Assembly: GCA_028706105.1 (NCBI GenBank)
Contig: JAQWCF010000010.1
Coordinates: forward strand, 1 to 32,098
Reading direction: 5' to 3'
Origin: Candidatus Margulisiibacteriota bacterium
GTDB lineage: Bacteria > Margulisbacteria > Riflemargulisbacteria > GWF2-35-9 > DYQY01
Length of the DNA stretch: 32,098 bases
Made by a program: the position numbers and the translations under genes. This document shows, piece after piece, positions 1 through 32,098 of this stretch. Position 1 is the stretch's first letter; every line of letters starts with the position of its first letter. A model generated the notes under the pieces. The model did no database searches and was not told the DNA's origin. It worked only from the letters and a program-made list of their open reading frames with translations.

Positions 1-3000
1 CCGTCTGCTTCTTTTAAGGTTACAGAGAAGAGCGATGCTGTTGCACTTAAAGCTTTACCTTTAAGTTTTAAATTGAACGATGAAAAGTGGACGACGCCAC
101 AGAGTGCAGAAGCTTTTGCCTTTCAATTAAGTGAAGGAGCCAATACTATAAACGTTAAACTGATGGATAAAGCTGGAAATGTAATTACGTCATCGTTCGT
201 TGTTACTTTAGATGAAGTTGCTCCAACAGTAACGACTTTTAGCATAGTTATTTCTCATGATGTTTCACGTGATTTTGGAGAAGAACCTATCGCTGATGAG
301 CATGAAATATGGTATAACAAGGACCTTATTCAAGGTTATGTAACCTGGGATAGTTCTCTGAGTCCAGATGATTCATTAGTTACAGAAAATATATTTATTA
401 AAGGGAATAAAACTAATAGTTTTGAATCTATCGGCTTTATCAATACGTCCGCTACTTTTGCTATTCAGGTTATCCCAGGAAGAACCTCGCCAGTGTCAAT
501 CATGGCATTTATTAGAGATAAGGCAGGGAATATTCAATTTGCTTCAGCTAATGTATACGTTAATACAGATAAGCCAGGTATGGGTGAAGTTTTCATTGTT
601 CCCGATACCGCTAATGATGGCTGGTTCCACCCGAAGAGTGGGTATTATGATCAATTAGATATTGATTGTACTTGGACAGAACCAACTGGAATATTAAGAG
701 CTAAACCATATCAGGTTAGAAGTAGTTTAACTTTTAACTGGACTGTAACTCAAAGTAGCACAGAGTATAACGGATATACCACAACTATTGGGAATCAAGA
801 AATTATTGTTAAAGCGATAGATAAGGCTGGTAATATTGCTACCTTCTCGGCGTGGGTTACTGTTGATCTGACAGCTCCGGCAACAGCGGATGCTTATATT
901 TCTCCTGACGTGGATTCTCTTTCTGATGGGTTTGGTCCTATTTTGGGTTACTATGATAATCAAGAAATTATAGTTACGTGGCAGGAAGTTGAAGATCAAA
1001 ATCTGGATTTTTATATGATTTTGACTCATGATATTAGGAACTTAACTGCGGATATAGACGTTAATTCTTATAAGATTTCAACGAACATAAAAGAAAAGTT
1101 AGTTACAGTTTCAAATCAAGGCATTAATACTTTATCAGTGATTGCAGTTGATGAAGCAGGGAATTATAGCGTTAAGTTGCTTACTGTTAATTTAGATACA
1201 ATTGCTCCTAGCTTTAGTTTTGTGGTAAACGAGAAAAATTTTGTTGAGATTTCCCAAGATGTACTCATTATTACGATTTCCTCTTGGGAATCGATTAGCA
1301 GAGGCTCGGACGCTTTATTTATAACATTAAACCTGGATGTTCAGGATGGAGAGAAAAAAGAATATAGACTTACGGTAAATCAATTATCAGAGGTTTTGTT
1401 TACTACCACGATGGATACTTCTGTTGCTAATGTAAGCGACAATAAAGCCACGTTAGAGTTTCTGCTCGTAGATAACGCTGGAAATGTCAGTACTTATTCA
1501 ATGAAGGGAATAGAGTTTAGAAGAAAGAAGCCTAAAGATCCTATTTTTAATTTGAGAAATCCAAACAATGAAAGCATAATGTATACCAATACCTTGAACG
1601 TAAGCGTTAACTGTAGTTATTCAGAGTACTTGACTCTTTCGTGGAATATTACATTTAATGTAGAGACTAGACCAAGCGAAAACGATTCTTTATTGTGGGG
1701 GACCTACCCAAGTACATTTGTTATTCCTTCTTCTTCACAAGGATTAAAGACCGTCTATCTTTGGGCTAAGAACGACTCAGGCACAAACTTAAACGCAGTC
1801 AGCGCAAGCATAGTGTATGACAATATTCCGCCAACATGCTCTCTTGAGAAAAATGATACATGGCCAACAGTTAGCTATGGTGAGTATAATTTTATCTTAA
1901 ATGTTTCCGATCATTTGGCTCAAGCACCAACAGCATCTATAGTTTTTTCAGAATTAGAAAACAAGACAGGCACTTTCAGTGTTAGACAAATAGATGGCTT
2001 GAGATATTCATTAGGATATAGCTTTACGGAGACGAGCGTTAATGGAATTATTACTTTGGATATAGAGATGGTTGACCGTGCAGGCAATACTTCTTCTGTG
2101 ATTAGTGGTTGGAGTACCTTGAATTTGCAAATGAATTATCCTCCAACGCCTAGTATTAGGTTTTCACAGATTGATGATCCTAGAAGAATCCAGTACATTA
2201 ATACAACCAATATTGAGCTTTTGAGCTGGATAGCAGTGTCAGCTGAAAACGATACAATCACTCAGTATTTAATAACCTATAACAACAACTTAAGACCACG
2301 TTCAAATTATGGTGGATGGAGGGGCGTTAGTTCATCTGTGCAGTCTACAGATGATATTTATGGAGATGGTGTTATTTCAACATGGAACATTAAGAGACTT
2401 ACTGTAGATTATTCAGAGGTTGTTAATAAATATGGTTTGAATGGTCAGAGATTTTTAACTACTGACATTTATGTTTGGGTCAGGGATGAAAAAGGTAATG
2501 TTTCTGAAAAGGCTGCAATGCAAAGCTTGACGATAGATATTGATGTGCCAGTTGACACTATTAGCTTCAACTATCTTGATGATACTTCCCCACAAAGAAT
2601 AACTTTTAACATTTTTATAGATGAAGCAGTAACTATCAACAAGTATTGGATAGAATTTGCTTATGACTCAGCGGAAGCATCAAAGAATCTAACAACAGAT
2701 GTAAGTATACGAAATTTCATTTTAACAGTGGATTTGACCAGCGAAGAAAAGTCTCTTCATCCTGTGTTGCGAAGACAGCTTGTAGATTTGGCTGGAAATA
2801 CACTTAATGCAACAACTGAGCTGCAGCCTAAGCTTTATGTTATAACAATCAATATGTCTACCAACACAGCAAACAGGAGAGATGAAATGTTGCGTTTATT
2901 AGATATAAATATTTCTCCTTCAACTGTTATTACTTTAGATAGTTTTACTATGGAGAAAGTTGGAGATAATCAAAACAAGTCAGTGGAACAATTATATTTG

Positions 3001-5196
3001 AAATTAAATGGACAGCGACTAGCTACTGCAAACTTTGTAGCTGGAACAGAAAACATTCGTTTCTTGTTCAATCCAATAAACATTACCGCTAATTCTGTCC
3101 TTTCTATTTATGGAGATATTCTTTCTTCTGCTTTAGAGCCTTTTGCTTTTCGAGTAACTACTGCTTCCTTTGCTTTAGATGTTTACAATAAGGTTTCTTC
3201 GAATATTCTGACACATACAACCAACTATTATGTTATTGGTAATGGTTGGAATGTGTTACACGTTTATAGAGAGTCAAATATAAAAACTACTCCAAACATA
3301 GTTTATCCAAATGATAAGGATGTTGTTTTGTTTAAGTTTGAAATGAATACATATCCATACAATGTAGCGTTGAATAAAATTGTTTTTAATAGGCACGAAG
3401 GCAATGATTTATTATCTGTAGAAAGTTTAGAAAATGTTAGATTGTATTATGAGAGTGATGAAGCTGTTATGAATGAAGTTTTTGACCCTGGAGACTCTCG
3501 TTGGTTGGAGCTTGTATTGGGAAAAATTGATAAAGGCCAGCAAACAATAACTTTTCAAGATTTTAGTAAAGTAATTTCAAGTAAGAAAATTAGGATATTT
3601 GTTGTTGCAGACATCAGTATTGATGCGTTATCTGGTAAAAACATTGCGTTAGAGTTTAGGACTACTGCTAACTTTGACGTTGGTGCTTTAAGTTTGATTA
3701 ATGAAAGTACGCTGCCTTTGTGTTCTGATACTACACAGATGGGAAGCTACAGACAAAGAATGAAGATGACTTACGCTCCATTTCAGAGAGGGGAAGTTCA
3801 TCAAGGCGCGAGCATTAAGTTTGGTGAATTAATAATTAGCAACGATTATTATAGTACACCTTTATCTCAAATTAATTTAAGGGTTTCATATAATAACATT
3901 GATTCGCTTGGGTCTTCACCATTTGTCGTTTCGTTTAATAATCAAAGAATGTCTAACCTTAATACTTTGACTAAAATAAATGGGGATTATGACGCTCTTG
4001 AAGTTCCGTTTCCTGGTTCCCAATATTTGATTGAGGGCTTTCCCCATATTATGGGATTAGGTGTAGATATTGCCAATGATGCTATTACTGGTTCTATGAG
4101 CATTAAGCTTTACCCTTCAGACTTGAAAGAATTGGTTGCTCCAGCAATTATCTTAAATACAGAAAACTTAACCATGGCAGAGATTATAGTTGTTGATAAG
4201 AGTCAGCCGATTATCTCTGGTGCTAAGGTTTTTGATTTTGTTAATAGGCCCGATTTGGTTACTTTTGATTTGGATTGTTCTGTTAATGACAATCAAACTA
4301 GTATTAATTCTGTTCAGGTTGCTCTTTTTCGCCTAGTTGCTGGTACTGAAGAGAACATAGGGACTAGTTATATTTCATTAAATAAGAATGCTAAAAACAA
4401 TAAATTCGAACTAAGAAACATTACTCTTGATAGGAGAGATATAAGCAATTTATCATTACTACATGGATATCAATATTTAATTAAGTTGAGAGCGAAAAGT
4501 AGCAAGGGAGAAGCAATTTTTACTTCTAGTGAGTTAGTTTTAACTTTTAATATTGATCTTACACCACCAATGTTTGAAAATGCAGGACTATTATTACATC
4601 AGGTGGATGATCCAGAAGCCACGTCTGATACTCATAGGTTAAGTTGGTCTCCTGCTTATGATCCAGAATCAACGGTTAGATATTATACAATTGAGTACCA
4701 AAGAGGTACTTCTCAAAAATGGAACCATGAAGCAACCATCAATGCAACTAGTTATACGATAGCAAACAGAGACAAGGACTTAAGATATCGATATAGAGTT
4801 AACGCAGTTAATGGAGCTAGGTTAAACTCAAATTGGATAACTTCTGAATATTCAACTGTAGCTAAACCAAAAGATAGCATATACAATGTTTCTTTTTATC
4901 CAAACCCTGTAAATGCAATTGCCAATGAAAAAGGAACTTTTTATTATGAACTAAAAGAAGATTCCAATGTTTCTTTGAAGATTTATGACGCTTTAGGGCA
5001 CTTTGTTAGGGAAATGAATTATAGGGCAGGAGCAAGTGGAGGACAAAGCTCTCAGCCTAATAAAGTAGAATGGGATGCAACCGACTCAGCTGGCAGAAAA
5101 GTTTCCAAAGGTGGTTATTTTGTTGTAATTAATTCGGTCTCTGAGAGCACGGGGCTTGAAGGTAATGTGAGACTTATGGTAGGGGTAATCCATTAG
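1..5196 (+). CDS. giant Ig-like repeat surface protein with FlgD-type C-terminal domain (5' partial)
   Basis: The reading frame is open from base 1, so the true start lies upstream; the TTG at 73 is only the first start-like codon and the frame runs through it. What is present is about 1,731 codons. At least nine repeat units end in a D-x-A-G-N type turn followed by a strand and a proline (for example DKAGN, DEAGN, DNAGN, DRAGN, DLAGN), the pattern of bacterial Ig-like/cadherin-like domains in secreted adhesins. A fibronectin type III-like domain lies near codons 1540-1620. The last ~80 codons (from about 1629) begin with FYPNPVN, continue through LKIYDALGHFVREM and VEWDATDSAGRKV, and end in GGYFVVI, which matches FlgD Ig-like / secretion-type C-terminal domains. 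It is probably exported to the cell surface. The ligand is unknown and no catalytic motif is visible. cysE follows 12 bases later. Confidence 0.85.
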   Translation, partial: PSASFKVTEKSDAVALKALPLSFKLNDEKWTTPQSAEAFAFQLSEGANTINVKLMDKAGNVITSSFVVTLDEVAPTVTTFSIVISHDVSRDFGEEPIADEHEIWYNKDLIQGYVTWDSSLSPDDSLVTENIFIKGNKTNSFESIGFINTSATFAIQVIPGRTSPVSIMAFIRDKAGNIQFASANVYVNTDKPGMGEVFIVPDTANDGWFHPKSGYYDQLDIDCTWTEPTGILRAKPYQVRSSLTFNWTVTQSSTEYNGYTTTIGNQEIIVKAIDKAGNIATFSAWVTVDLTAPATADAYISPDVDSLSDGFGPILGYYDNQEIIVTWQEVEDQNLDFYMILTHDIRNLTADIDVNSYKISTNIKEKLVTVSNQGINTLSVIAVDEAGNYSVKLLTVNLDTIAPSFSFVVNEKNFVEISQDVLIITISSWESISRGSDALFITLNLDVQDGEKKEYRLTVNQLSEVLFTTTMDTSVANVSDNKATLEFLLVDNAGNVSTYSMKGIEFRRKKPKDPIFNLRNPNNESIMYTNTLNVSVNCSYSEYLTLSWNITFNVETRPSENDSLLWGTYPSTFVIPSSSQGLKTVYLWAKNDSGTNLNAVSASIVYDNIPPTCSLEKNDTWPTVSYGEYNFILNVSDHLAQAPTASIVFSELENKTGTFSVRQIDGLRYSLGYSFTETSVNGIITLDIEMVDRAGNTSSVISGWSTLNLQMNYPPTPSIRFSQIDDPRRIQYINTTNIELLSWIAVSAENDTITQYLITYNNNLRPRSNYGGWRGVSSSVQSTDDIYGDGVISTWNIKRLTVDYSEVVNKYGLNGQRFLTTDIYVWVRDEKGNVSEKAAMQSLTIDIDVPVDTISFNYLDDTSPQRITFNIFIDEAVTINKYWIEFAYDSAEASKNLTTDVSIRNFILTVDLTSEEKSLHPVLRRQLVDLAGNTLNATTELQPKLYVITINMSTNTANRRDEMLRLLDINISPSTVITLDSFTMEKVGDNQNKSVEQLYLKLNGQRLATANFVAGTENIRFLFNPINITANSVLSIYGDILSSALEPFAFRVTTASFALDVYNKVSSNILTHTTNYYVIGNGWNVLHVYRESNIKTTPNIVYPNDKDVVLFKFEMNTYPYNVALNKIVFNRHEGNDLLSVESLENVRLYYESDEAVMNEVFDPGDSRWLELVLGKIDKGQQTITFQDFSKVISSKKIRIFVVADISIDALSGKNIALEFRTTANFDVGALSLINESTLPLCSDTTQMGSYRQRMKMTYAPFQRGEVHQGASIKFGELIISNDYYSTPLSQINLRVSYNNIDSLGSSPFVVSFNNQRMSNLNTLTKINGDYDALEVPFPGSQYLIEGFPHIMGLGVDIANDAITGSMSIKLYPSDLKELVAPAIILNTENLTMAEIIVVDKSQPIISGAKVFDFVNRPDLVTFDLDCSVNDNQTSINSVQVALFRLVAGTEENIGTSYISLNKNAKNNKFELRNITLDRRDISNLSLLHGYQYLIKLRAKSSKGEAIFTSSELVLTFNIDLTPPMFENAGLLLHQVDDPEATSDTHRLSWSPAYDPESTVRYYTIEYQRGTSQKWNHEATINATSYTIANRDKDLRYRYRVNAVNGARLNSNWITSEYSTVAKPKDSIYNVSFYPNPVNAIANEKGTFYYELKEDSNVSLKIYDALGHFVREMNYRAGASGGQSSQPNKVEWDATDSAGRKVSKGGYFVVINSVSESTGLEGNVRLMVGVIH

Positions 5197-30339: not shown

Positions 30340-32091
30340 ATGGAGCAGGGTGGATTATCTAATAGTCAGAGCGTTAATAGCTCTTCAATCAATAGCAATA
30401 GCAAGATAGACGTAAACACAGATACTTTGCAGAAGCTTGTATTAAGCGCCCAAGAGGAAGCCTCGGATCAGTCAAAGGGAACAAAGGATACTGCCAAGTC
30501 AAAAGAAACCACCTCGGCATTACAACATATTCTAAAAGGTAACGAGAAAGATGCTAAGCAAGAATTGCTGAAAGATTTTATTCATAAAGTAGCTGGTTCA
30601 GAAAGCGATATTTTATTTAGTGGTGATAAGGGAAGTAAAAATGTAGATCTTATGGGAGAGCTCAAGTTACTTTTTGGCAAAGATTCTATGAAGAACGATG
30701 AGGTTGTTCTGAGCACTCAAGCCAGAATGATGAATATGACGGATGCTGTTACTCAAAGTCAGGCAGCCGCAGCCTTGAGAAAAGAAATGACTAAAACCGA
30801 AGACGACAATGCCAAGGCAGATAAAGCAGAAAAACTGGAAAAGCAGATTTTTGAAGAAAAAACTGGAATAAGAAATAAAGTTGCGCCAGATAGAGCAGAT
30901 AAAACAAAAGAAGCTGAGCAGAAAGAACCAGTGCTTAATAGCGACGAGAGAGGTAAGTATTTCCAAGAAGACCAAGATCAAGACAATAGTGGGAAAAATA
31001 GACAAAACCAACAAGAGGTAATTGATGATGATGACACGATGGCAATTAGCAAGCTCAAGCAACAAGCTAGGGCAGAAGTGGAAGAGTCTGTTGAAGACGA
31101 AAACGTCGTTGATGAAATTGAAGAAGTTGATGTTGACGAAGTACAACAAAAAGAAGCAAAGGTAGGACAAGTTTCTATTGCTAGAGAAGGGCGCATGGAA
31201 GTAGAAGAGGCGTCTGCTGACTCAAAAGCTATTAGCGAAATTCGAGAGCAGGTACAGCCTCAAGAGACAAAGCCACCTAGGGACGAGTTGATTACAAAAT
31301 ATACTGACCACTATAGAAAGTTTTTGATGCTTCCGAACAAAGACTTAGACGGTCTTATGAAAAACGAGGAAGAATTATTAAAAGAATTTGGTCTTACATC
31401 CAGACAGATAAAGGATGTTCAGCAAGCAGTCAAGAAGACGATTAAGCAAGAGATAAGAGGTAAAATTGGAGACGCAATTATTCAAAAGCAGTTAAGTGTT
31501 GGCAATAAATTGGATTCCTTAACCGCAGATACTCGCCTCAATAAGTTCACCGATTACTTTGTATCTAATTTATTGTTAGGCGGGCAGGACTTCGGCGGGT
31601 TTGATGATAATTTCCAAGGTATGGTTAATAAAGCGATGTATTTTGCTAGTAAAGATTTAGCTAATTTTTCGATTGAAGAAATGGAGCAATTTGTTACACA
31701 GGAATCTATCGACCCATCCAAAACGAAGGTAGATAAGATAAGAGATTTCGAATCAAAGGTGAATGATTTAAACTCTATTACTAATAACCCAAAGGTAACA
31801 GAAGAGTGGGCTCAGACAGCGATGGAAGCATTTATGAAAGACTATGGTCTGGCTAGAGAAAAGCTAGATATTCCTGTGCAAGCTGCAGGCTCAGGCATTA
31901 ATGTGATGTCTGGCGGGGCAGGGTTTAATCAGGGGAATCAGCAGAAGGAAAAGCATGAATATCAATTTGATTCCAAAGACGAGAAAGACATTTTTCTTAA
32001 TATCAGTGCGATCAGGAGCTTGCCGAGGGGCGGATGCGGTTCCATGAAGTACACCCCGTTGAGATACTTCTGCGCACTTGCGATGTGGTAG
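30340..32091 (+). CDS. large hydrophilic acidic protein of unknown function (3' end corrupted)
   Basis: An unrecognised protein. The N-terminal ~40 residues are rich in Ser and Asn, and residues about 40-310 are charged, low in hydrophobics and probably coiled coil or disordered, with acidic runs such as DDDD and EEVDVDEV. From about 320 to 530 a more ordered all-helical domain follows (starting DELITKYTDHYRKFLML). There is no signal peptide or membrane segment. A Ser/Asn-rich start with charged coils and a helical domain is seen in some secreted or flagellum-associated proteins, but no family match is claimed. About the last 27 codons (from roughly 32010) come from high-GC sequence of different origin, so the stop at 32091 is not the real one and the gene is truncated by the join. 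Confidence 0.7.
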   Translation: MEQGGLSNSQSVNSSSINSNSKIDVNTDTLQKLVLSAQEEASDQSKGTKDTAKSKETTSALQHILKGNEKDAKQELLKDFIHKVAGSESDILFSGDKGSKNVDLMGELKLLFGKDSMKNDEVVLSTQARMMNMTDAVTQSQAAAALRKEMTKTEDDNAKADKAEKLEKQIFEEKTGIRNKVAPDRADKTKEAEQKEPVLNSDERGKYFQEDQDQDNSGKNRQNQQEVIDDDDTMAISKLKQQARAEVEESVEDENVVDEIEEVDVDEVQQKEAKVGQVSIAREGRMEVEEASADSKAISEIREQVQPQETKPPRDELITKYTDHYRKFLMLPNKDLDGLMKNEEELLKEFGLTSRQIKDVQQAVKKTIKQEIRGKIGDAIIQKQLSVGNKLDSLTADTRLNKFTDYFVSNLLLGGQDFGGFDDNFQGMVNKAMYFASKDLANFSIEEMEQFVTQESIDPSKTKVDKIRDFESKVNDLNSITNNPKVTEEWAQTAMEAFMKDYGLAREKLDIPVQAAGSGINVMSGGAGFNQGNQQKEKHEYQFDSKDEKDIFLNISAIRSLPRGGCGSMKYTPLRYFCALAMW

Positions 32092-32096
32092 TTCTC
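32003..32096 (-). CDS. fragment of protein O-mannosyltransferase-family glycosyltransferase (foreign, partial at both ends)
   Basis: On the minus strand, reading from 32096, the frame has no stop and translates to ENYHIASAQKYLNG, VYFMEP, HPPLGKLLI. This is the signature of the PMT/GT39 membrane glycosyltransferases, where an acidic DE motif is followed ~20 residues later by HPPLGK. Here 49 of 88 bases (56%) at 32011-32098 are G or C, against 33 of 90 just before. It is better explained as a piece of another genome joined to the contig end than as a gene of this organism. Confidence 0.6.
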
Positions 32097-32098
32097 GT

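Follow-up and report, generated by a model that had tools for sequence, protein, structure and literature searches.

The end of the stretch analysed here (the window; 32,098 nucleotides, comprising the whole of C10, one of the 147 contigs in a 1.93-Mb assembly) raises the question of whether its last gene ends as assembled or whether two unrelated sequences have been joined. Based on sequence comparisons, we conclude that the contig end is almost certainly chimeric: the sequence is genuine up to position 32002 and is followed by a single stray T and a 95-bp fragment from the GT39/PMT gene of a Peribacteraceae bacterium, and the true continuation of the truncated gene lies on a second contig of the assembly, C26. 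The two sides of the join have different origins, the left side leading to C26 and relatives and the right side to a Peribacteraceae MAG.

Composition and coding content of the contig end

The last 96 bases (32003-32098) have a G+C content of 56.3%, compared with a mean of 35.0% (standard deviation, 5.7) for 96-bp stretches in the window, ∼0.003% of which are as GC-rich; the 300 bp directly before them have a G+C content of 39.7%. The initial annotation had placed a GC jump near 32010; the jump is real, but the compositional boundary lies slightly to the left, at 32002/32003. It had also described a PMT signature on the minus strand of the tail, and we recovered this signature. The minus strand is a stop-free frame (ENYHIASAQKYLNGVYFMEPHPPLGKLLIALI), and the encoded 32-aa peptide matches the Pfam family PMT (PF02366) with E=3e-4 and 20.9 bits, which is just below the curated cut-off of 22.7 bits, a value set for whole proteins. 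Among solved structures, the peptide matches chains of protein O-mannosyltransferase (6p25, E=0.0015), and over 31 aa it has 84% identity to a Nitratiruptor protein annotated as a phospholipid carrier-dependent glycosyltransferase. As judged from these matches, the tail is a piece of a GT39/PMT glycosyltransferase gene (PF02366). PMT genes on three Nitratiruptor plasmids have 81 to 84% protein identity to the tail peptide; we consider them relatives only and not the source of the tail.

The truncated gene and its true continuation

On the plus strand, the window ends with an open reading frame at 30340-32091. Its genuine part (30340-32002) comprises 554 complete codons, and the 126 bp at 31877-32002 are exactly identical, on the plus strand, to the first 126 bp of C26. 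C26 (L003) holds the same frame open up to a stop at position 665, and the 3' part of the gene corresponds to C26:127-665. Consistently, the homologue in a genus-mate (G001) is a single open frame across the join point. The alignment of this homologue to the window part has 75% identity over 541 aa and ends at N554, i.e., the last complete codon ahead of the join, while the alignment to the C26 part has 84.5% identity over 220 aa. The two alignments share 41 residues, reflecting the 126-bp overlap, and zero residues are missing between them. At the DNA level, a search within the genus gave a match in G001 that covers query positions 3-124 of 222 and breaks off at the join, and 34 of the 38 genomes searched contain a match to the C26 part. 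Because both C26 and G001 carry the gene uninterrupted, its true length, with the parts on C10 and C26 taken together, is about 733 codons, and the ending of the window reading frame is false. On this comparison, the last 29 residues of that frame (residues 555-583, encoded by the plus strand at 32003-32091; ISAIRSLPRGGCGSMKYTPLRYFCALAMW) and its stop are artefactual, as the initial annotation had proposed; the overlap with C26 and the intact gene in relatives likewise bear out its suggestion of a chimeric join.

The gene itself (30340-32002 together with L003:127-665) is conserved across the phylum and encodes a protein of no named family. The protein has no significant hit in Pfam and nothing over the cut-off in NCBIfam, where a weak, sub-cut-off match to HYxxLL (E=0.0011) was found; when its true C-terminal part was compared with solved structures, nothing beyond chance matches was obtained. 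The gene is followed by one for an unknown protein of 593 aa and faces flhB, and it is possibly tied to the flagellar export apparatus.

The junction and the origin of the tail

After the overlap, C26 reads GGCTTAGGGCAC..., while C10 reads TCAGTGCGATCAG.... A search of ∼85,000 species genomes for exact copies of an 81-base stretch of the tail gave a single match, namely contig JAQWAC010000004.1, which is labeled Candidatus Peribacteraceae bacterium isolate STF2_188, NODE_1188 ... Sandtown_F2 (MAG). Positions 32004-32098 of the window are identical to this contig, on the minus strand, at 95 of 95 bases (L015:256-350). The donor locus is internal to a 53-kb contig (G038:C5:24256-24350) and lies in an open 544-codon frame with a full PMT sequence. 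An unbroken version of each parent therefore exists, i.e., C26 and the G001 homologue for the left side and this 544-codon frame for the right side. The tail and the STF2_188 GT39/PMT gene (PF02366) share the reading frame and the motif HPPLGKLLIAL; the STF2_188 gene continues (GEKLLNVNPTHNEF...), whereas the window holds only ∼32 codons. The G+C content of the donor region is 56.7%, in line with the high-GC foreign donor anticipated in the initial annotation. Neither phages, which gave short chance matches only, nor E. coli, which gave no match, qualified as the source of the tail.

With both parents at hand, the join can be placed to the base. The T at 32003 belongs to neither parent, being a G in C26 and a C in the donor; from 32004 onward all bases are those of the donor, and the true continuation in C26 is different. 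Thus, the parents are without any common base at the join, and a single extra T separates them. The initial annotation had suggested that a short shared sequence at 32001-32014 (ATCAGTGCGATCAG) caused the join. Because no base is common to the parents there, this microhomology fails as an explanation.

Could the tail instead be native, for instance a piece of the genome's own PMT gene that was misjoined within the genome? Two native PMT-family genes do occur in the genome, on C37 and C81. However, the tail DNA has no second match anywhere in the window's own genome, and it is identical to the Peribacteraceae MAG over its whole 95 bp; moreover, even if the donor contig had been misbinned, the join would still be false. 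We therefore consider a native tail highly improbable, and the fragment of ∼32 codons is foreign and not one of the genome's own genes.

Another reading is that, in part of the population, the gene truly acquired a fragment of a GT39 gene from a Peribacteraceae bacterium by rearrangement or horizontal transfer. In favor of this reading, the tail is real donor sequence, and both organisms could live in one habitat. Several observations argue against it: the tail is 100% identical to DNA of a distant organism, the join is without homology, the contig stops 95 bp beyond the join, the uninterrupted version is present on C26 in the same assembly, and the gene is uninterrupted in relatives. Moreover, at least two other contig ends in the assembly appear to carry unrelated foreign scraps that are also shorter than k (see below). 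Altogether, we regard such an event as very unlikely; a very recent, real Peribacteraceae insertion present in a minority of cells, with the intact version assembled separately as C26, seems to us equally improbable. Rather, the junction is an ordinary technical artefact from assembly or library preparation and of low biological interest.

Assembly fingerprint and similar contig ends

How might such a chimera have arisen? We compared 279 of the 294 contig ends of the genome. Among the 25 exact, flush head-to-tail overlaps between contigs, 22 are 127 bp long and three are of other lengths; the 127-bp overlaps indicate de Bruijn assembly at k=127. That C10 and C26 share 126 bases, i.e., k-1, suggests that the edge between their end k-mers is absent from the graph. 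A chimeric read or fragment from a mixed-community library probably provided the only sequence by which the last genuine 127-mer could be extended. The k=127 graph would have lacked the correct 128-mer edge to C26, which would explain why the overlap is 126 rather than 127 bp, and the chimeric branch, being without a competitor, would not have been clipped as a tip. Because the tail (96 bases) is shorter than 127, it would contain no full donor k-mer and could neither be merged with the donor contig nor be extended, which may account for the lack of a link between the two. A single read holding the full 127-mer together with the tail would need at least 223 bases; otherwise, the tail would have entered at a lower k.

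Other contig ends in the same assembly have a similar structure. The start of C57 (L041) has a 126-bp overlap with the start of C50 (C50:1-126, L034), preceded by a 125-bp overhang (C57:1-125) that lies outside the overlap, has a G+C content of 56%, and reads ...GVIEISNICQKDCDYCAMRRSN.... The cysteine pattern of GVIEISNICQKDCDYCAMRRSN resembles that of BioB/HydE-like radical SAM enzymes; the overhang peptide matches the Pfam family Radical_SAM with E=0.05 only. C50 is likely the true continuation of C57, and the start of C57 appears, from its sequence, to be a second chimeric contig end. The start of C68 (L052) overlaps the start of C137 (L121) by ∼128 bp at ∼98% identity, i.e., not exactly, and has an overhang of 103 to 108 bp with a G+C content of 66% that encodes part of the methyltransferase subunit MtrH (E=1.3e-7, with a Pfam match that exceeds the cut-off). 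It is likely a third chimeric end, although less clean than those of C10 and C57. None of the overhangs at C10, C57, and C68 reaches a length of k, and the recurrence of such overhangs at several contig ends speaks against a biological origin of any of the three. Two more contig starts, C48:1-100 (L032) and C95:1-110 (L079), are GC-rich and coding (glycosyltransferase-4-like and 2-hydroxyacid dehydrogenase-like, respectively) but have no known continuation; they are possible further chimeras.

The COBRA paper (PMC10914622) describes that contig fragments of one population share ends of maxK or maxK-1, which mark the true continuation. The end of C10 resembles the case described there in having foreign sequence at the contig terminus and a k-related overlap. 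We see no difference of principle between the two; however, the k-1 overlap of C10 is set 96 bp inside the contig, behind the tail, and a comparison restricted to the terminal k bases would probably miss the true join between C10 and C26. Cutting contig ends back by up to k bases, or finding set-back k-1 overlaps, would give a cleaner genome and joined contigs (C10-C26 and C57-C50). In databases derived from this assembly, the protein would have a false C-terminus, and anyone searching with the tail could be wrongly led to gene transfer between distant bacteria. The tail of C10 is useful as a flag for assembly quality.

At the opposite end of the contig, the first gene (1-5196) is truncated at its 5' end. 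The encoded surface-type protein is at least 1731 aa long, contains Ig-like, fn3, and FlgD_ig domains, and matches Por_Secre_tail weakly.
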